A stretch of DNA of 33,138 bases, from positions 1 through 33,138 of the IMG/VR virus record IMGVR_UViG_3300033145_003427; one strand, 5' to 3'. Source of the stretch: a virus. Made by a program: the position numbers and the translations under genes. The notes beneath the pieces were generated by a model, which was not told the DNA's origin, did no database searches, and worked only from the letters and a program-made list of their open reading frames with translations. Below are positions 2,170 to 29,194 of the stretch, piece by piece; position 1 is the first letter of the stretch; each line of letters begins with the position of its first letter.

Positions 2170-2672
2170 TTTACTACCTCCTCTTCGTTTTTGTGTTCTG
2201 TAAAATAGATATCATAAACTTTTTTCCCTTGAAGCAAGTTGTCTAATCTTCTATTCCTATCTTTGTATACATTTTCTGACTCTTCTTTAGTCCAGCCATA
2301 GGCTTTTTGCATACTCTTTGTAACCAATTCTATATCTCTACGACACCTGATAATTGTCGGTAAATCTACAAATGATAGATACAATCCTAATAGATAACAT
2401 AATCTCGGATCTTTTAATCCCCAATTATGCCAGTATGTTTTCCGTCTTACGTTTACTAATTTCCTCGTTTCTGTTTCCCATTGTCCTAAACTCACCTCTC
2501 CGGTAATAAAACGTTCGTTTAGATTCTTGAACTCTAGATCTTCGTAGTACCCATCCTGATTGTCTTCATCTGCTTCTCTGAATTTATGTCCCATACAGAC
2601 GTTTAAATTCTCATGTAACAACCTTGCTACTGTGCTTGTTCCGCTTCTACCTGGTCCTACTACAAAAATCAT
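2142..2672 (-). CDS. Sulfotransferase-family P-loop protein
   Basis: This 176-aa protein matches the PAPS-dependent sulfotransferase fold. It has an N-terminal phosphosulfate-binding loop GPGRSGTSTVARLL (residues 6-19), a WGLKDPRLCYL segment (84-94) like the conserved KDPR block, and IIRCRRDIELVTKSM (107-121) like the 3'-phosphate-binding R...S motif. The expected role is transfer of sulfate from PAPS to a hydroxyl or amine, often on a glycan. It is shorter than many bacterial members (roughly 200-300 aa). It starts within the stop of the fibre-like gene (ATGA overlap). The neighbouring glycosyltransferase suggests a sulfated sugar product. A kinase is less likely because the KDPR and R...S blocks are present. 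Confidence 0.75.
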   Translation of the reverse strand: MIFVVGPGRSGTSTVARLLHENLNVCMGHKFREADEDNQDGYYEDLEFKNLNERFITGEVSLGQWETETRKLVNVRRKTYWHNWGLKDPRLCYLLGLYLSFVDLPTIIRCRRDIELVTKSMQKAYGWTKEESENVYKDRNRRLDNLLQGKKVYDIYFTEHKNEEEVVKWLEKILCQ

Positions 2673-3571
2673 TTTATCTCTACTAACGTATAGTTTGGAT
2701 TAAAAAACATTCTGTCTGCATGGGTAGCTACTCCAACAACCTGCACTTGATCTTCACTTCCAGAAGGTGGGGTTTGGGTAATACTACCAGCAGTAGTATC
2801 AGCAAATATTAATCCACTGCTTGTTCCACCAAGAGTCCAATTCCAAGTATCATCTCTCAAAAATCCATGCAATAAAACTTTCCCTTCACTATTTGCAGTA
2901 ATACTCTCTAAAGCTATAGCTATCACAGGCATACTAACAGCACTGTCAGCATCAGATAGCCACAACTTCCCGTCAGTATGTTGAAATAAGGAGTTGCCAA
3001 AAACTAAATTTTCTCCAGCGGTCATCCTTACTGGAATACCACTATAAGAATGATCATTTATAGACGAATCTTCTACCATAAAAGAACCAGGAAAAGTATT
3101 TCTTCCTAACACTTGTTCAATGTCGCTTTGGGCAATCCCGTTGATCGTGCCAGCAGCAGCATTTCCATCATCCTGTACAGTCACGATTCCCAGCGGGTAA
3201 TAGTTGGCAGGCAAATCAGCTACTGTAGTTCCTGAAGTTGTTACTCCAGAAGTACCTTCAAGTCTGGTAACTCCTCCGGTATCATCCATGCAGATAAGGA
3301 TTTTATTATACCAACTGGCAGTTATTGGACTCAGTTGCCATGAACCTCCTGTACCAAGATCAATATTTGTAGTGCCACTATACTCAACTTTTGATACTCC
3401 TGACCAAACGCTACAAGAGTCTATTCCGATAGAAGTGCCAGAATTATCTTGAGCCCAAACATATCCACCTGCTGCTGATTGCAATCCAGTAAAGTTTTCC
3501 CTAGTATACTTAAAAGAATCATCTATATCGTCACTTATTAGTGGCTTGAATTTCTGAAATTTGTCAGCCAT
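2669..3571 (-). CDS. Tail fibre/appendage-like structural protein
   Basis: This 300-aa protein is rich in Gly, Ser and Thr, with low charge and beta-strand character. The C-terminal stretch (LLHGFLRDDTWNWTLGG, then ITQTPPSGSEDQVQVVGVA, ending MFFNPNYTLVEIK) is a module I know from phage fibre and appendage proteins in environmental phages, where it forms a terminal beta domain. A GGGG motif lies 8 bases before the ATG. It sits directly downstream of another fibre-like gene and is coupled to the sulfotransferase. An exposed virion component at the tail tip is inferred. The exact attachment site is not determined. Confidence 0.65.
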   Translation of the reverse strand: MADKFQKFKPLISDDIDDSFKYTRENFTGLQSAAGGYVWAQDNSGTSIGIDSCSVWSGVSKVEYSGTTNIDLGTGGSWQLSPITASWYNKILICMDDTGGVTRLEGTSGVTTSGTTVADLPANYYPLGIVTVQDDGNAAAGTINGIAQSDIEQVLGRNTFPGSFMVEDSSINDHSYSGIPVRMTAGENLVFGNSLFQHTDGKLWLSDADSAVSMPVIAIALESITANSEGKVLLHGFLRDDTWNWTLGGTSSGLIFADTTAGSITQTPPSGSEDQVQVVGVATHADRMFFNPNYTLVEIK

Positions 3572-4072: not shown

Positions 4073-7000
4073 CTAATATCCGACAGCCATCCAATCGATT
4101 ATTCCTGTAACACCTGCCGGAACAGTATCATATACTTTTGAAAAGAACCCTGTAGTAATTTTCCTTACTACTATAGGCAACTTCGCTGCATCTTCAACCA
4201 GAGTGAGTCTGATAGATAATGACGAAGCTGAGTTGAACGCCCGAGCAAAAGTAATTGTAGTCCCACCAATTGCAATATCTACATTTTGTCCAGATTCTGA
4301 TCTGTCTGGTACATCAATTGTTACAATGAAGTCCCCTAATTCTATTCCATTGTATGGAAAACTAGATGGAGTTACTCCAAGTGTGAGCCTAAACTTCAAA
4401 TATCTAAAAGTATATTCTCCTTCTTGAAACGCTGACCAACCATTCCATGTAATATTATCATCTGAAATATTTATTTCAGTAGTGAGAGAAGTTCCATCTT
4501 CAGAGGTGACTTCTGTAGAAACATGAACTGAGCAAGACAGGATTGATGAAATATCTAAAACCTCAGTGACGAATGTCCCGGCAGTAATCTCTGTTGGGGG
4601 TTTCCATGCTTTAGTTTCTGTATCGTACCAAGCTTGTCCAGTAGTGTATGTATTAAATATATCAGTTCCTGTTCTCTTTGTAGCAACATGACATTTCAAA
4701 ATATCATAATCTACAAAGATATCACTTCTTTCTGGAACTAAATAATCTCCTGCCTCTGTCGTTAAATAATCACCTGCTTCTGTCGTCAGAGCATTGATTC
4801 CAGGGCCAAAATAATCAGCATACGCATATCTTCTATGCTGATTAGAAGTTTCAATTACATTTCTCTGAGTAGAAGCTTGAAGAGTGATAGCTTTGCTGGC
4901 ATAGTTATCGCTTTTATTCCCACTTGTATCTACTGTCTTTACAAAATAAAGCTTTGCTCCCTCACTGTATGACATTAAGATATACTTTGTATGGGTTAAC
5001 TGAACTACTAAAGTTGATGAGTTCCATGAGGACCCTTCTCTAATCTCAAAATGACTAAAATCAGCATCAGTCAATCCAGAGGGCCTATCTATAGTGAAGA
5101 TAACAGCGTCTCCTGACTGTACTACATTAAAGTTTTCTGGATCACTTGGCAAAGCCGTCTTTCCAAGGATTGTAGCAGTTACAGCAGAAACATCATCAAT
5201 AGGCTGAAGAACCCCCTGATCATATTCTGATCGCACCTTTACATATAAAGTATCTCCTTCTTCAAAATCTGCTCCTCCAGATTCAATCCTAAAACCAGGA
5301 GTAGTACCAGATGCTGCATTTCCATAATGATCATAAGTTGTTCCGCTTGTGCTTGTCCAGATTTGCCCTCTGTTCCAGAAGGTAGAATCACTAGGCTTGT
5401 CAAAGTATACCAGGACGTAAGGAACATAAGTCCCATCTCCTGCCACAAACCCTCCTTCCGATAATCTTACGTTCTCTACAGAGTTTATCTCAAAAGGATT
5501 AGAAAACTTAGGAGAATAGTTTTCCTGTTCTATGAAACCATCATCGTGGTAGATACCTGAATAGTACGCTTCAAGTTCAAACCTTGGTCGTCCCCACTCA
5601 TCTTCGTCCTTTCTTCTAACAAGAAAATTCTTTTGTGACCAGGAAGGCAAAGTGTGGGTAATCTGTACTCTATCATATACTTCTAAGTCACTTGAATCAG
5701 GAAATCCTGTAAGTCTACAAACATAGTCAGTATACTTAGCCTTGTCGAATTTGTATCTTGCTCTACGTTTTGCTACATCTGTTTCTGTTATATACCAACA
5801 ATTCTCCTCATACAGAACTTCTCCTCTATTTGTTATGTCTCTCTCGTCTTTTATTTCTACTACACTCTTTTTAAACTCATCACTAGAATCTATGTAATGA
5901 ACCCTGACTATATTGGGCCTTTTTACTTTGCCCCAGGTGATAGAATCCTTTACTATGTTATCCTGTGTAAAACTGTGCTTGGATGTTTTTGTTTGAAGGG
6001 CTCCAGCACCATCATGTTCCTCAGCAGCATCCCAGACAGGCTTAATCTGTCCCTGGTCCATGATGCACATACCATTGAACGACTTCCAGATGAGTTTCTT
6101 AGCGTCGTTTATGGTGGTTTTAGTATCAAAGTTGTAGTCAAACGTATACCTCTGGGATCTGCCAAATAGTTTAACATCTCTAATCCCCATATAAGCCCCA
6201 CCATAGTTATCACTGACCTTAAGACTATAGTACCGATAAGCAGTGGAATTTGTGAAAGTGAAAGTTTGAGGATCTGATTGGTCATTAGCAGTATGCTTAG
6301 CAGCAGTCTGACTTACTCCGATATTCGTCCACCCTGAAGCTGTCCAGGAAGTATCATTAAAAGCAGAAGAAGAATTAGAGCCTTGTAAAGTAAAATTTTT
6401 GATCCCTTGTATAAGAGTTCCTCCGTTGTGATGACCATTCTCAAGGACTAACTTATCAACAACGTAACTAACTCCCATGTCAATGTTGACTCGTTGATTT
6501 GTATTGGTCCCATTTGCTGATAGCCACTGCCTCTTTGCATGAGAACCAGTCAAAGATAATCTTTTATTCAGAGCATTCTGAGCTTTGTAACCAGTATTAT
6601 TGTACTGAGAAGTAGCTTTGACAGTACTGTCGCCTGGTCCTGGAGGTCTTATAGGAACAGAGTCTGCTGTAGTGGGCACTGTTGTACAGTAGGTATCAAG
6701 AGCAGTAAACGCATTCTGGTTCAACTCACTCGTGGGTCTTCCTTCAACATTTACATACCAGTCCCACATCACCTGTCCAGGACTTCTTGTAAAAGATTCT
6801 GTACCTCCAACTGCTTGTCCTATATCAAGCTGTTTAGTTCTAAGAACAGTATTGAAATTAGGAGTCCCCCTTATTTCATCTCCCTTACGGAGTTTTAATT
6901 CCGTAACAGCTGTTTCTCTGTACGGGCAGGTTTTGTTGTCCGTAAAGAGATTAGTAACTCCTGATTGGATAGTTGTTCCGCTATGAGACCATTTTGCATG

Positions 7001-22012: not shown

Positions 22013-23119
22013 TTAAGCAGTACTTTTGTAAGCATATCGATAATCTACAGCGCCAATACCCCCAAACATACGGACTTTAAATTTACTCTTTATGTCTCTT
22101 GAAAACTCATCCTCATGTCCGGGCTTCATCGACATCGTCTGTAATGGCCAAACTTCTTCCCACCAGAACGACCGTTTAAAATTGCCCCAATACCAAGTAG
22201 TAGCGCTTTGTTTAGTAATATAAGGACTAGTCCTCACTTTAAACTTTCCTTTGAAGATATTAACTGCATTCTCAGCCGACTCTGGTACTAATGTAGAATT
22301 AGCCATCTGCAAAGCTTCAATCTGCAAATCCTTTGGGACAAGAACAATTACATCATCATCAGCAATGAAGATGTAATCTGTATCATGAGTTCCTGTAGAA
22401 TCATCCCTCATCTGATGAGCCAATTTTTCTACTTCTTCAAGACCTGACTCACCAAAAGGATTAGAAGTTTTTAAATTACCATTACCTGTAGAATAAATAG
22501 CAGTTCCCGTTCCTTCAGGTCTATATACAACATATTGACCAGCCTTCTGGACATCCTGAACACCCTCAACAATAAGTCTCTCTTTATACTGAGCAGCCTT
22601 GTCTCCTATTCCTTGAGCTCGAGTAAGGATCTGACCAGTCTGGTCGAAAAAGATCATCTCCTCTGTAACAGATATAATACGTCCATATTTCTTGTTATGG
22701 ATTGTAACATGTTTTTCTGTCAGAGTTGAATCATCATAAGGATGTCCCTCTGGAACCTCGTCCACTCCTTCTGAAGCAGTAAACCCAGCCACAGTGTCAA
22801 TCTTCTGCTTGATCCCAGGTACAGTAGTAACTAGTTCATCTCCTATCGTAGGGGCTGACTCAAAGGCTTCGATGATTCTCGAATTGATCAACTCCCCCGT
22901 AATCTTAGGAAAAGAATCTGAGGAGACTGCCTCATGGATACTCCTAACGGAGCCATCCTCGTTTCTTTCACAAGCCTCCCAGATCTCTCGAATAGAAAAG
23001 TCATCCGGTCTCAGCTTTCCGCTCTCAAGTGCTTTTTGAATCACTCGACGAGCTCCTTCGCTACCTTTTGACTCCAATAGATCTCGGAGAGCAGTTCCTG
23101 TAGTATCTCTAAAAGCCAT
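22013..23119 (-). CDS. Major capsid protein (HK97-fold)
   Basis: This 368-aa protein forms the icosahedral shell. It follows the protease/scaffold and decoration genes, as usual. The N-terminal 60 or so residues are helical and charged. Then comes a capsid-like core: VTIHNKKYGRIISVTEEMIF, FDQTGQILTRAQGIGDKAAQ, TDYIFIADDDVIVLVPKDLQ, IKSKFKVRMFGGIGAVDYRY. These are arranged as E-loop, P-domain and A-domain of HK97-like proteins. There is no obvious long cleaved delta domain, since the protein is helical from residue 8. AGGAGG lies nine bases before the ATG. Assignment is by position, size and pattern. Confidence 0.85.
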   Translation of the reverse strand: MAFRDTTGTALRDLLESKGSEGARRVIQKALESGKLRPDDFSIREIWEACERNEDGSVRSIHEAVSSDSFPKITGELINSRIIEAFESAPTIGDELVTTVPGIKQKIDTVAGFTASEGVDEVPEGHPYDDSTLTEKHVTIHNKKYGRIISVTEEMIFFDQTGQILTRAQGIGDKAAQYKERLIVEGVQDVQKAGQYVVYRPEGTGTAIYSTGNGNLKTSNPFGESGLEEVEKLAHQMRDDSTGTHDTDYIFIADDDVIVLVPKDLQIEALQMANSTLVPESAENAVNIFKGKFKVRTSPYITKQSATTWYWGNFKRSFWWEEVWPLQTMSMKPGHEDEFSRDIKSKFKVRMFGGIGAVDYRYAYKSTA

Positions 23120-23145: not shown

Positions 23146-23661
23146 TTAACTTATCACTCCCAAGCCGTAGGTGCTATGAATTATCACCTGGGCTGTTTTA
23201 GCATGTACTTTTCTTTCAGCAAAATAGCCGATGGCCTTTGCTGTTTGTGTGGTTAACATAACTTTCTGATCAAACATATCAGAAGCACTTGAGGTTCCAG
23301 ATACCCCAGCAATCTTTCCTACATCGACAGTGGTAGCAGGACTAAGGTCAAACTCAAAAACTCCTTCCCTAGCCACCGCAATATTCTCTGCTGGTTTATC
23401 TAATCCGCCATCCTTATCACTCAATGCAACACCAAGAAAACGGCTAGGAACAGCGGCTTTGTTAATCTCCAAAGAGGCTCCTGATTTCCTTAGCCAACTA
23501 ATAGGATAACCAGTATGACTTGCTGTAGATGAGCCATTGTTTCTCAGGTTGTCTTCATTATCGAAGAAGATAAGATCCCCCATTTCCACAGTTGTTCCAC
23601 TTGAGAACTTTACTGTGATGGGATTCTTACGACCTGAATGCCAACGATTTACATTAGCCAT
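23146..23661 (-). CDS. Capsid decoration-like protein, paralog B
   Basis: This 171-aa protein resembles the next gene upstream: both have a start of about 25 residues ending T-V-E-x-G-D-L (TVEMGDLIFFDNEDNL here), a central FLGVALSDKDGGL with A-x-D-G-V-F/E-F, and an ending H-T/S-x-Y-G-L/R-G. This is the layout of small capsid-binding or decoration proteins. Its ribosome binding site is weaker (AGG with a second AGG close to the ATG). It lies between paralog A and the capsid gene. Confidence 0.7.
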   Translation of the reverse strand: MANVNRWHSGRKNPITVKFSSGTTVEMGDLIFFDNEDNLRNNGSSTASHTGYPISWLRKSGASLEINKAAVPSRFLGVALSDKDGGLDKPAENIAVAREGVFEFDLSPATTVDVGKIAGVSGTSSASDMFDQKVMLTTQTAKAIGYFAERKVHAKTAQVIIHSTYGLGVIS

Positions 23662-23678
23662 AACCTACATATCCTAGT

Positions 23679-24230
23679 TTAGGTTATTAATCCACGACCA
23701 TACTTAGTATGGATTTGGAAATCCACATAAGTGGTCCCTGCTTCATTATTCAACACACAATAACCCAGGTATGCTGTAGTTCCCCCAACTGTAGCATTGT
23801 CAATAAGGGATACGTTCTGTGGGGAAACCCCTACTCCTGTAGTTAAAGTAGGTGGGGTTACTGCAGAAACTTTCAACCCAATCGTGGTTCCTGTAACGTC
23901 CGCCGTTGCCTTTTTATGATAAGGATAACGGAAGACTCCGTCAGTGGCCACAGTGATGTTGTTTGATACTCCACTTGCGGAGCCGCTCATAGCTACTCCT
24001 ACAAACCACTGTTTGCAAACATTAGCAGCATTACTGACCCCACCTTTTACAACGTCACCAGAAACAGAACTAAAAGAGTAGCCGTAGTAATCCGCTGTTC
24101 TACCTGACTGATCTACCTTTGCTACACCACCAATAACCATAAGATCACCTGGTTCAACAGTGACATCGCTGTGGACAGGAACAGTTATTTCGTTCAAATC
24201 ACCTCTAAGGTGTCTATTATGTCCAGCCAT
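23679..24230 (-). CDS. Capsid decoration-like protein, paralog A
   Basis: This 183-aa protein has TVEPGDLMVIGGVAKVDQSG near residue 24, WFVGVAMSGSASGVSNNITV with ATDGVFRYPYHKKATADVTG in the middle, and an ending QIHTKYGRGLIT. It is a diverged duplicate of the 171-aa protein. Such proteins stabilise capsids by covering capsomer junctions. AGGAGG lies nine bases before the ATG. It is placed between the protease/scaffold gene and the capsid gene, as usual for decoration genes. Confidence 0.7.
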   Translation of the reverse strand: MAGHNRHLRGDLNEITVPVHSDVTVEPGDLMVIGGVAKVDQSGRTADYYGYSFSSVSGDVVKGGVSNAANVCKQWFVGVAMSGSASGVSNNITVATDGVFRYPYHKKATADVTGTTIGLKVSAVTPPTLTTGVGVSPQNVSLIDNATVGGTTAYLGYCVLNNEAGTTYVDFQIHTKYGRGLIT

Positions 24231-24244
24231 TTATCAAATCCTCC

Positions 24245-24799
24245 TTACTTTCCTAATTTCTTATCGACAAAGTCGTCTATATCTTCATCTGTTACTTTTT
24301 GCTTAGACTCAGTAGTTTCTTTGTCGGGGTTGTAATGGTCACCAGAGCCTTTAACCTTACCAGAATCAGAAGCCAATAAAGCCTTTCGATCTTCAACCAA
24401 TTGCTTGGCTTGCTCTTCAACCGTAATCACTTTGTCGTCTTCTTTCTTTTCCTGAAGAGCCATAAGACTCTCTGTAAAGACTTCAGTGATAGCTTCTTTC
24501 GGAAGATCCTTAGTCAACTCAGCGATCATCGTTTTCTTCTCAGCAATTTTCTCAGAAAGCTCTTTCTCGTCGAGCTTGACCTTAAGATCCTGATTCTGAC
24601 TTTTAAGTTCGTCTCGTTCCTTCTTCAGTTCCTCAATCTCTTTGTCTTTTGTTTTAGTTGTTTCTTCCAAGTTATCCTCCAACTTCTTGATCTCAGCCTT
24701 TGCTTCGGTAAGATCAGCCCCTGCCTTTTTTGCTTCCTCAGACTTTTTATACTCTTCTACAGCCTGATTTTTGATTTGCTCAATCTGATCCTTGTCCAT
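24245..24799 (-). CDS. Nested scaffold protein (in-frame internal start)
   Basis: M284 of the protease-scaffold fusion is preceded by GGAGG (24812-24808) with an eight-base spacer AAGAAAAC, a near-ideal start site. The product would be 184 aa: the acidic/basic coiled-coil scaffold without the protease. This mirrors lambda, where Nu3 is made from inside gene C. Expected role: abundant internal scaffold for prohead assembly, later degraded by the protease. The length fits phage scaffolds (roughly 130-200 aa). Confidence 0.75.
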   Translation of the reverse strand: MDKDQIEQIKNQAVEEYKKSEEAKKAGADLTEAKAEIKKLEDNLEETTKTKDKEIEELKKERDELKSQNQDLKVKLDEKELSEKIAEKKTMIAELTKDLPKEAITEVFTESLMALQEKKEDDKVITVEEQAKQLVEDRKALLASDSGKVKGSGDHYNPDKETTESKQKVTDEDIDDFVDKKLGK

Positions 24800-25648
24800 G
24801 TTTTCTTCCTCCGTTATTGATTCTTTTATGGCTGACAGTTTCTTTTTGACTTCCTTATCGAGATCGTCAAACACTGCCATAACCTTTTTCCGTTTATCTG
24901 TGACGGACATCTTCTCATCATAGAGAGTCTTTTCAATCAAACCATTAGCGATATATGTAATATCACTAATCTCTCTACGAATTTTGTCGTTGTCCAGTTT
25001 ATCCTGAATCATCCCCTCTTCAGCGAAGAGAGCTTCAACTTTATCTTCTACAAGGTCTTTCAAGATTTCGATCTCGGGGTTGGCATTTTGTTCGACTTTC
25101 TGCCCTAGGCCCTCCCAGAGGTTAGAAATCGTAGCTCCCTCGCTCACGCAGTCGAAACTACGCACTTTATCAATATCTACAACATTCTCTCTACCCTTAC
25201 TATCCGAAAATACTTTAACTCTACAATTAACGCTCATCCCCATTCCATGAGGTTGGATAGTAGCAATATCTCTCATCAAATCAAAGTAAGCCTCTCTACA
25301 GCGAAGATTAGCATAGATTTTATCCCCATTCTGTCTTGCTCCTTCGAATGCTCCAATCCAGTCCCGAATTGATCTAACCCCCGATTTTTGTTTCATCTCA
25401 TCAACCGAGGGATGATCAGCATAGCACTTAGCTCCTTCTGCTAAAGCAGTCAAAGTAGCAATTGCTTTCGTACTATAGATTCGATCATTCGCAGAATTCC
25501 GAGTTCCAAAAAGACACACCCCTTGGATAGTATGATTATCTAGATCGATTCCAGCTTCAGTTACTTCAGAAAACACATTGCCAATATTTTCAATCACATC
25601 TTTCGGTTTTACCACATGACATATTGCTGTTCGTTTCTTTTCAGCCAT
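24245..25648 (-). CDS. Capsid maturation protease fused to scaffold domain
   Basis: This 467-aa protein has an N-terminal head-maturation serine protease (about 20-185). H79 in YADHPS and S139 in PHGMGMSVN are the likely catalytic residues, with D166 in RSFDCVSEGA a third candidate. The LFGTRNSANDRIYS segment is typical of the family's first strand. Residues 200-283 are a linker, and 284-400 a Lys/Glu-rich coiled coil (LKKERDELKSQNQDLKVKLD). The C-terminus ends VTDEDIDDFVDKKLGK. The protease cleaves scaffold and other head proteins after prohead assembly; the coiled coil scaffolds the shell. AGGAG precedes the ATG. An internal start yields the scaffold alone, as described next. Confidence 0.88.
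   Translation of the reverse strand: MAEKKRTAICHVVKPKDVIENIGNVFSEVTEAGIDLDNHTIQGVCLFGTRNSANDRIYSTKAIATLTALAEGAKCYADHPSVDEMKQKSGVRSIRDWIGAFEGARQNGDKIYANLRCREAYFDLMRDIATIQPHGMGMSVNCRVKVFSDSKGRENVVDIDKVRSFDCVSEGATISNLWEGLGQKVEQNANPEIEILKDLVEDKVEALFAEEGMIQDKLDNDKIRREISDITYIANGLIEKTLYDEKMSVTDKRKKVMAVFDDLDKEVKKKLSAIKESITEEENMDKDQIEQIKNQAVEEYKKSEEAKKAGADLTEAKAEIKKLEDNLEETTKTKDKEIEELKKERDELKSQNQDLKVKLDEKELSEKIAEKKTMIAELTKDLPKEAITEVFTESLMALQEKKEDDKVITVEEQAKQLVEDRKALLASDSGKVKGSGDHYNPDKETTESKQKVTDEDIDDFVDKKLGK
24808..24812 (-). promoter_or_regulatory. Internal ribosome binding site for nested scaffold
   Basis: GGAGG followed by AAGAAAAC and ATG lies within the protease-scaffold gene at the junction of protease-linker and coiled-coil regions. 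The coding need there is only for Glu-Glu-Asn, so the strong site appears selected rather than incidental. Confidence 0.75.
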
Positions 25649-25674
25649 TTATCCTAACTCCTAGGTCTATGTTC

Positions 25675-25743
25675 GTGACTACTCTGTCAGCTTTAGCTGA
25701 CAGCTTCTACGAATACACCGAAGGACTGTAGCTCCAGTCCTAA
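25675..25743 (-). ncRNA. IS200/IS605 right-end-like / omega-RNA-like element, copy 1
   Basis: On the minus strand: TTAGGACTGGAGCTACAGTC (with a six-pair GGACTG/CAGTCC stem), a linker, GTAGAAGC, then a perfect eight-pair stem CTGTCAGC-TAAA-GCTGACAG and GAGTAGTCAC. The arrangement is shared with copy 2 behind the capsid gene and resembles the right end/omega RNA of tnpB-type transposons. A ten-base direct repeat, ACGAACATAG, flanks it (25676-25667 and 25779-25770), the second copy lying in the final codons of the 190-aa gene. No transposon protein is seen. Confidence 0.5.
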
Positions 25744-25765
25744 TATGTTTAATGCTGCATTGGGG

Positions 25766-26431: not shown

Positions 26432-29194
26432 TTAAGTGGTTTTGGTCTTCTTTTTCTTAGTAATCTGCTTAGCTTTTCTTTTCAACTTATCAATTGTAAG
26501 GATTCTTCTATCCGTTGCCATTTGATTGAGTTTTAACTTCCCCTTCTTCCAAAGACCATACCGAGTCGGGCCTAGAATATCTTCTGCCCTTCCTGCTTCG
26601 TAGATTGCAGAGGCGGGATCATCTAATTGTTTCAACCACATCGGGTAAGCAAGAGTTGAAGGAACTGGACCGGCAAAGGAGGCCCGTGTAGAAGGAGGAA
26701 CTTCCTTTGTCACTTTGTCTCCTAATTCTTTCCAGGATTTTGAGATGGGGGCTAGGACGCATCGGCAATTATGAGAAACAAATCCATTAGCTATATAAGA
26801 CTCATCATCCTCAACAGAAAAGTTATAAAGAGTAGTAGACGTCACTGTAGGAGTTTTCCCTCCTTTCTTAGTCGAAATCCAATGTTTCACAGAAACAACT
26901 TTTAATTCTATATACTTATATTCACCATTATGATTTGCCATAACTCTACACAACTCGTCCACACAAGAACCAACATCTGAATTTACTTCACTCTCAGAAT
27001 ATCGTAAAACAAGCCACCCTTGATCTTCTATCTCTTTTTGTCTTTTTTGATCTTTTTCTTTATTCTGATGCCAATAATCGCCATCTACCTCGATAGCAAT
27101 CTTAAGTTTAGGAATTGCAAAATCTACAAAATATCCAACTATAGGGTGTTGTTTTGTAAAAGTGAGCCCTCTTGCTTCCATCATTTCTCTGAACTTCTTT
27201 TCTAAACTAGATTCAAATCCCTTTCTAGCCATAACTCTATTAGGATGTTTATCAGGATTCTCTTTAAAAAATTTCCTCATCTTACGACCATAAACTAATC
27301 TTAGATGAGGATACTTCACCATGCAATTCTTATCGCCTTTTTTCGATTCAGAAATTTGAATCCTAACTTCTGGTCGTTTAGAAGGATTTCTCTCTCCAAT
27401 TTGTGGATTAGTTTGGAAAGGATGAATTCCATCATAAAACATTTTTGCAACTGCTCTTCTGGCTGGGACTGTGGCTGAATATCTATTTCTTTCTCCAGAA
27501 GCATATTGTTCTATATTTTTAGCACTAATTTTCTCTGACATATTCTTTCGATGTTCAGGATCTGTCCACTGTTTATCTGTAACATCTTTACTCAAACAAC
27601 TCTGAGAACAATGTTTTCTATTATAAGGAATCAATTTCCCACATCTCTTACATTCTGCAGCCAGATATCTCAACATATCACCAACTTTAATTTCTTTAGC
27701 AGGCTGCCATTCACCATCAATCATGAGAGGATGATCTGTAGTAACGGTCAGTTTTCTTGTGCCTGGTCTAAACACCTTACTTGTATTAAATCTAGGAAAT
27801 TCAACTTCTACAGTTACAACTTCTGGGCCTTTCACCTTATGTCGAATTATGTCCGTTACTTTTCTAAACCTCCCTTTGTGAGTCAGAACTCTATCTCCAA
27901 CTTCAATCTTACCTATAGATTTCATTCCTCTTGAAGTAAATATAGGAATTTGGTGGTCGATAAAACAATAAGGATGCAAAGGAATTATCGGAGCGTTGAT
28001 AACTCCTTCTTTATATTGATAAATCTTCCCGTCAAGAGATCCACAACGGATGCAATTGTGAACAAAAACCCCTTCAGCTAGAAAAGAATGGTCCTCTTCA
28101 ACAGCAATATCATAAACCTCCACTTCTTCTATCACTTCTTCAACTGATAATATTTCAATTTCCTCAAAAGTCATCTTATTTTTGCCATCGATTGCATCCC
28201 CTAGTTTTAAATTTCTAACCTCAATCCATCTTTCTTCTTTTAAAACTAAATGATCGGAAGTTATCTTCAAAATTTTTCCATTTGATAGTTTGACTTTTAA
28301 GTATCTATCCCTCTTAGTTTTCATCTTACCCAAAATCCGTCTCCAATTTCCTTTATGAGATAAAACCAAATCCCCTACTTTTACATCTTTTATTCTCTTC
28401 TCTCCTTCTTTGGTATTTACAATAGTTTCTGGAAGTAAACATGTTCTCGAATCAAGCGTACTCACGAATTGCACTCCACGCAGCACATCCTGATTCTCAT
28501 TATAGATCCCTCTTGCTACTCGATTACTAACATGTTGAATCTCTGTCCGAGCAACAATCTGAGCCTTATTCCATATCAACTTTTCTGCTTCTCCAGCTGT
28601 AAGTTTTACTGTAAGTTTTAATTCTTCTATTCTTGGAATCAAGGCAGGGGCTACAGGTTTAACCAACCTTTTAGCAGCCCTGGCCATGTCTTCCCCTTGA
28701 ATAATAGACTGAGTTAGTTCTCGTTTCATCAAACCGATAGCTTTCTGGTTTGTCCAGAGCAGTTCGTCAGCTATCTTTCTCTCACCAAGTAAAGGATTAG
28801 AAAGGATATGATCAATATGCCTATAAGGTAATCGGACTATATCTATTCCAAGCGGGCCGTAAGCCTTGTCTAACATGTTATGATAGACCTGAGAATCTAA
28901 TAGGGCTATCTCTTTCATTCCATCTTCTAAGATGCCAGCCGACTGAAGCGCAGCAGCATTTAAAACCCCTTGAACCTCAGCCAACTGTGCCTTTAATCGA
29001 GCCACTCGGAAATCAAGACTGAATCCAGTACCGTATTTTTCCAGAGAAACAAGCCGATCATAGATTTGGTTTTTGGCCCTCCTGTAAGGCTTGAGCATAC
29101 TATGAATGGTTTTGGTTTCAAACCTATACTGATAATGTGGCCATTTCAGTAGAAATTCTCGGAAGGAAAGAGAAACATTTTTCTTAGCAGGCAT
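26432..29194 (-). CDS. MuF-type minor head protein (SPP1 gp7-like) interrupted by two inteins
   Basis: The 920-aa precursor contains an extein of 391 aa (residues 1-251, 381-409, 810-920) after two splicing events. Joined, the extein reads STLDSRT-CIRCGSLDGKIY, then IIPLHPY-CRCVLAPISK, which is the signature T-C-x-x-C-x-x-L-D-G-K-x-Y...L-H-P-x-C-R-C of the MuF/SPP1 gp7 family. The N-terminal part is helical (long segments around 60-100 and 140-230) and binds the portal in related phages. It acts in head morphogenesis or is carried into the cell with DNA. The ATG follows the portal stop directly (TAG ATG). Both inteins sit before conserved cysteines. Confidence 0.9.
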   Translation of the reverse strand: MPAKKNVSLSFREFLLKWPHYQYRFETKTIHSMLKPYRRAKNQIYDRLVSLEKYGTGFSLDFRVARLKAQLAEVQGVLNAAALQSAGILEDGMKEIALLDSQVYHNMLDKAYGPLGIDIVRLPYRHIDHILSNPLLGERKIADELLWTNQKAIGLMKRELTQSIIQGEDMARAAKRLVKPVAPALIPRIEELKLTVKLTAGEAEKLIWNKAQIVARTEIQHVSNRVARGIYNENQDVLRGVQFVSTLDSRTCLLPETIVNTKEGEKRIKDVKVGDLVLSHKGNWRRILGKMKTKRDRYLKVKLSNGKILKITSDHLVLKEERWIEVRNLKLGDAIDGKNKMTFEEIEILSVEEVIEEVEVYDIAVEEDHSFLAEGVFVHNCIRCGSLDGKIYQYKEGVINAPIIPLHPYCFIDHQIPIFTSRGMKSIGKIEVGDRVLTHKGRFRKVTDIIRHKVKGPEVVTVEVEFPRFNTSKVFRPGTRKLTVTTDHPLMIDGEWQPAKEIKVGDMLRYLAAECKRCGKLIPYNRKHCSQSCLSKDVTDKQWTDPEHRKNMSEKISAKNIEQYASGERNRYSATVPARRAVAKMFYDGIHPFQTNPQIGERNPSKRPEVRIQISESKKGDKNCMVKYPHLRLVYGRKMRKFFKENPDKHPNRVMARKGFESSLEKKFREMMEARGLTFTKQHPIVGYFVDFAIPKLKIAIEVDGDYWHQNKEKDQKRQKEIEDQGWLVLRYSESEVNSDVGSCVDELCRVMANHNGEYKYIELKVVSVKHWISTKKGGKTPTVTSTTLYNFSVEDDESYIANGFVSHNCRCVLAPISKSWKELGDKVTKEVPPSTRASFAGPVPSTLAYPMWLKQLDDPASAIYEAGRAEDILGPTRYGLWKKGKLKLNQMATDRRILTIDKLKRKAKQITKKKKTKTT
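26768..27967 (-). mobile_element. Intein 2 with Vsr-like/EDxHD-type homing endonuclease (400 aa)
   Basis: The intein runs from C410 to N809, with C810 as the first extein residue (SHN|C). Block A is CFIDHQIPIF with IGKIEVGDRVLTHKG; block B is LTVTTDHPLM with T486 and H488; block F/G is YNFSVEDDESYIANGFVSHN. Between them is a four-cysteine zinc-finger-like unit (C515, C518, C529, C533), NUMOD3-like stretches (DPEHRKNMSEKISAKN at 546-561; GERNPSKRPEVRIQISESKK at 600-619), and a nuclease: FESSLEKKFREMMEARG, YFVDFAIPKLKIAIEVDGDY with D691, E702, D704 and H709. This is the Vsr/DUF559-like PD-(D/E)XK fold seen in some homing endonucleases. Cleavage of inteinless copies of the gene is the expected role. 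Confidence 0.85.
28055..28441 (-). other. Intein 1, mini-intein without endonuclease (129 aa)
   Basis: The intein runs from C252 to N380, with C381 as the first extein residue. Block A is CLLPETIVNTKEGEKRIKDV with KVGDLVLSHKG; block B is ITSDHLVL with H315; block F/G is VYDIAVEEDHSFLAEGVFVH ending in N380. All needed splicing residues (C1, block B His, terminal His-Asn, C+1) are present. There is no room for a homing nuclease, so it is a mini-intein that probably lost one. Splicing restores SRT-CIRCGSLDGKIY. Confidence 0.88.

Follow-up and report, generated by a model that had tools for sequence, protein, structure and literature searches.

Capsid maturation proteases and scaffolds are encoded in several known arrangements. 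In phage T4, the protease gp21 and the scaffold gp22 are products of separate genes, and herpesviruses produce the scaffold from a dedicated transcript that overlaps the one for the protease-scaffold. The lambda protease, gpC, is of the S49 type. The gpO protein of phage P2 cleaves itself, and we know of no separate nested scaffold start within its gene. The model of a nested protease and scaffold is lambda C/Nu3 (Shaw and Murialdo 1980, cited in PMC8508860). A single gene encodes both protease and scaffold in the case of P2 gpO, and protease, scaffold and major capsid protein (MCP) in that of gp5 of Pseudomonas phage MD8 (PMC8508860).

The locus described here lies in a stretch of viral DNA of 33,138 nucleotides, hereafter the window (IMG/VR record IMGVR_UViG_3300033145_003427, positions 1 to 33,138). 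It resembles lambda C/Nu3 in that the 3' part of a protease gene forms an in-frame, putative scaffold gene with its own start, in the corresponding position among the head genes, and differs from it in that the protease models as T4 gp21. Protease and scaffold occupy a single gene, as in P2 gpO, and the protease is fused to the scaffold, as in MD8 gp5; in MD8, however, the MCP is fused too and the protease is lambda-like. The likeness to herpesvirus UL26/UL26.5 is that of an assembly protease joined at its C-terminal end to a scaffold which is produced on its own as well, as the scaffold of the window probably is. Unlike the herpesvirus scaffold with its dedicated transcript, that of the window is proposed to arise from an internal ribosome-binding site. 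In a literature search of partial coverage, no description emerged of a scaffold start nested within a T4 gp21-like protease.

Gene layout and the internal start

The gene is located between the portal/minor head protein block and the decoration/major capsid genes, the usual location of protease and scaffold. The features of the locus are as follows.

24245..25648 (-), full-length capsid maturation protease-scaffold fusion, 467 aa/codons; homologs found
25658..25662 (-), AGGAG of the full-length start, 9 nt before the ATG at 25646-25648; duplex -6.8 kcal/mol
25115..25561 (-), protease domain, residues ~30-178, predicted T4 gp21-like fold
24803..25066 (-), helical linker, residues ~195-282, from AlphaFold2 and the alignment
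24808..24812 (-), internal Shine-Dalgarno (SD) sequence GGAGG, 8-nt spacer; duplex -9.5 kcal/mol
24797..24799 (-), internal start codon ATG, Met284, with Asp next; M-D or M-E in most relatives
24245..24799 (-), putative nested scaffold CDS, 184 aa, MDKDQIEQ...; a stand-alone gene in the relative L003
24515..24781 (-), long coiled-coil helix, residues 290-378, from AlphaFold2
22013..23119 (-), MCP (Pfam PF25209, 1.2e-20; phrog_133), presumed scaffold client

The nested start is in the same frame as the protease ORF, has its own ribosome-binding site and leads to a stop common to both; the spacer between GGAGG and the ATG of Met284, AAGAAAAC, spans 24807-24800. AlphaFold2, given 14 aligned relatives, models residues ~30-178 as a confident domain and 195-282 as helices, followed by a low-confidence break at 278-297 and a single long helix at 290-378. 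The first-pass annotation had assigned M284 a GGAGG with an eight-base spacer and had predicted a 184-aa product starting MDKDQIEQ in addition to the 467-aa ORF, and every one of these numbers is correct. Its placement of the site at the very point where the coiled coil begins holds to within about 6 residues, as the helix begins at 290.

Taken from the window sequence alone, the internal site is only suggestive. When synonymous codons were drawn for the upstream residues ITEEEN, an equal or stronger duplex was obtained in about a quarter of draws (p = 0.24-0.25). Among the window's genes, 2/187 internal in-frame ATGs, M284 included, reach this strength. The internal SD and start are locally open (0.81 unpaired vs a mean of 0.48 for controls in the window). 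A further ATG that lies within a gene and in its frame, at 1255 (-), codon 133 of the gene at 995-1651, also follows a strong GGAGG (-9.5 kcal/mol).

The surrounding head genes have features of their own. Two to three similar decoration-like genes stand in tandem between the scaffold and major capsid genes, both in the window (23146-24230) and in the relative L002 (6119-7757), and the second of those in the window has a weak match to Phage_cement_2. The Mu F-like minor head protein of the window (26432-29194 (-), 920 aa) appears to be interrupted at conserved cysteines by two inteins, the smaller at residues ~253-381 and the larger, which has a Vsr/DUF559-type endonuclease domain, at ~421-809. 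Both are absent from the corresponding proteins of L002 (360 aa) and L003 (357 aa).

The protease domain

No family was named for the window protein by Pfam, NCBIfam or PDB sequence searches, and the Peptidase_S77 profile (PF03420), searched at E up to 10, matched neither the window nor G002 nor G003. Matches in viral model libraries are capsid maturation proteases, and four members of the relatives' alignment match the head maturation protease phrog_15531 (best E 2e-10). Structurally, the domain at residues 28-170 models as a T4 gp21-like/assembly-protease fold: three chains of 5jbl, the T4 gp21 prohead protease, are the top Foldseek matches (best E 1e-3, probability 1.00), and VIA-align superposes the domain on 5jbl with Z 9.6 over 132 residues. 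Lower scores, VIA Z 5.0-6.2, were obtained with several herpesvirus assembly proteases, among them pUL26N and the HCMV protease; a shared arrangement alone can produce such values, and this likeness, at Z below 8, is only suggestive. Residues H79, S139 and D166 are invariant in all aligned relatives, and H79 and S139 are candidate catalytic residues.

Two other assignments were rejected. A tape-measure identity, raised by PHROG matches, was attributed to coiled-coil noise. Membership of the lambda gpC family was set aside, as the window protein has no S49 Pfam match at E up to 1 and its domain is T4 gp21-like. Consequently, the lambda C/Nu3 comparison drawn in the first-pass annotation is apt for the logic of the layout and does not extend to the gene family: with a T4 gp21-like fold, unlike the lambda S49 type, the window protease belongs to a different one.

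Conservation of the internal start across relatives

Used as a single query, the 467-aa protein had no matches among viral contigs and annotated phages, and two scans of bacterial and archaeal genomes gave none either; relatives were reached via the MCP and portal genes and later via protease alignments. The comparative set comprises 27 non-redundant genes, 17 close (window included) and 10 remoter. In 25/27 genes, no other internal in-frame ATG is preceded by as strong a duplex as the one at the protease-scaffold boundary. This first rank is held in 17/17 close relatives, among 7-16 ATGs each, and in 8/10 of the remoter genes; in the two weakest remote homologs, L055 and L061, the boundary site ranks second. 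In the remotest genes, the boundary ATG was picked partly by eye. Boundary duplexes average -10.4 kcal/mol, and those of the 227 remaining internal ATGs -2.5 kcal/mol (p = 3e-17, which is no strict probability because the sequences are related and hence not statistically independent). The SD at the boundary is mostly rank 2-6 among all 285-510 codons of the genes tested, and the distance from SD to ATG is 4-13 nt in every homolog scored. Across the set, the internal SD is also stronger than the gene's own start (-10.4 vs -6.8, Wilcoxon p = 2e-5).

The protein sequence at this point is poorly conserved, with a mean pairwise identity of 19% over the seven residues that precede the Met. From gene to gene, the residues that encode the SD vary (TEEEN, NKGGKK, QEGIET, EGEKK, KENKQ, VEDEE and KGGDEGA) and more than one codon phase is used, so the SD is not carried by protein conservation. 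Combined over genes, synonymous shuffling gives p = 7e-4 (Fisher) and 2e-5 (Stouffer). It is the start signal, and not the peptide, that is conserved. We regard this comparative test as decisive; chance is excluded across the relatives. The first-pass annotation had proposed to check whether related phages keep the internal site despite divergence of the coding sequence, and they do.

No clear internal site was seen in the very remote genes L020, L022, L023, L065 and L067, which were left unscored as too remote or fused to the MCP. In L020 (7236-9974) and L065 (3779-6196), the protease, an intervening region and the MCP constitute a single ORF of ~800-900 aa, a three-part fusion similar to that of MD8 gp5. 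Four remoter relatives (L013, L015, L016 and L017) are without the helical linker that spans residues ~195-282 in the window, and in L013, L015 and L016 the SD and ATG are kept immediately after the protease domain.

The cultured Arthrobacter phages Molivia and Thunderclap (Amigovirus) are weak relatives of the remoter branch, with ~31% identity over part of the protease. They have the same gene order as the window, and Met-Glu stands at the same boundary after EEEDD; in Molivia, this Met is codon 176 of gene 28. Their boundary SD is the best internal SD of the gene; it is weak at -6.0 kcal/mol, weaker than that of the window, and the scaffold part is shorter. Their deposited records give one protease gene and no scaffold, as the first-pass annotation had foreseen for standard annotation.

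A relative with a split gene

In L003, the two parts of the gene are separate, in a layout that resembles the distinct protease and scaffold genes of T4. An in-frame TAA, its first base 30 nt ahead of the scaffold ATG at 6398, closes the protease ORF (5126-6370), and a separate 169-aa scaffold ORF has its own start, TAGGAGGAACCAAAAG-ATG (AGGAGG). This ORF aligns with the nested parts of other relatives. In the protease tree, L003 stands beside six fused relatives, inside the fused clade (support 100/98); therefore, the fused gene is the older state there, and fission came later with the scaffold start kept. The split is known from one metagenomic contig. It shows that the scaffold is able to survive as an independent gene with a start of this kind, and it lends support to the reading of the nested part as a separate scaffold.

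The head gene cluster of L003 also contains cargo that is out of the ordinary for such a cluster. A radical-SAM-like ORF (78-944) precedes the portal gene, and a sugar-epimerase-like ORF (2370-3365) lies between the portal and minor head protein genes; both names were given by eye, on the basis of the translations.

Two probable products from one mRNA

On this evidence, the gene at 24245-25648 (-) very probably encodes an N-terminal protease, a linker and a coiled-coil scaffold, with two starts on one mRNA from which both products are made. Initiation at 25648 would yield the 467-aa protease-scaffold in small amount, and initiation at 24799, directed by the strong internal SD, would yield the 184-aa scaffold alone in excess. 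Because the internal site is stronger than the first start and is locally open, more free scaffold than fusion is expected per mRNA. The free scaffold and the MCP would then co-assemble into a procapsid. Since the fusion has the scaffold tail too, it would be carried inside by this common part, a few protease molecules entering in this way, and the protease would later digest the scaffold within the procapsid. The sequences and models show that the internal site is conserved and stronger than the first start, that the gene is split in L003 and that the protease matches the T4 gp21 fold; we infer the expression of both products, their ratio, the scaffold function and the targeting of the protease by the common tail.

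Of the other routes to a free scaffold, self-cleavage of the fusion, comparable to the processing of P2 gpO and with the internal start minor, is the least improbable, though unlikely. Self-processing is common among proteases of this fold, and the low-confidence stretch at 278-297 may be exposed to it. Such cleavage nevertheless leaves unexplained why SD and ATG are conserved, why the internal site exceeds the first start in strength, and why L003 has a separate scaffold gene; both routes can also coexist. A separate short transcript from inside the protease part, as for herpesvirus UL26.5, would yield the same product, but this appears improbable: a scan of 24240-25760 for promoters of the sigma-70-like type found none, against 2.3 expected by chance, a result that favours nesting by translation over nesting by transcription.

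It is more doubtful still that the SD merely reflects the Glu/Lys/Gly-rich codons of a flexible linker, with an incidental Met. The duplex strength attainable by 25% of synonymous draws in the window, and the presence elsewhere in it of comparably strong internal ATGs, would fit such an origin. However, the site recurs in all close and most remote relatives with different residues and an ATG suitably spaced from it, no such SD precedes an ATG in the other parts of these genes that are rich in Glu/Lys, and L012, L025 and L029 keep both SD and ATG with a less Glu/Lys-rich linker. Least credible is a translational pause that aids folding between the protease and scaffold domains without initiation, which would suit the position of the SD at the domain boundary but would need no start codon, whereas every homolog scored has the ATG within reach of the SD and the L003 site is the sole start of a separate gene. 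The nested-scaffold interpretation is thus the one supported by the comparison of these genes.

Implications for phage head assembly

Given the layouts known in lambda, P2, MD8, T4 and the herpesviruses, the window case is therefore a known trick, lambda-type nesting, applied to a different protease fold in a lineage without a recorded scaffold. The lambda-type solution, in which one gene has two starts, a common tail and a favoured scaffold, is here seen with a protease of T4/herpesvirus fold, and in L003 natural gene fission separates the protease and scaffold parts. For annotation, gene callers list a single protein although two are very probably made by the phage, and they leave out the scaffold, which is usually abundant among assembly proteins. 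Where cultured weak relatives such as Molivia have no annotated scaffold, the site indicates where to look for it.

More tentatively, the nesting of a scaffold start within T4/herpesvirus-fold protease genes may be ancient and widespread in a large branch of tailed phages, most of them uncultured. If so, it would be a translational counterpart of herpesvirus UL26/UL26.5, and the nested layout would have been reached, or kept, independently of the protease fold.
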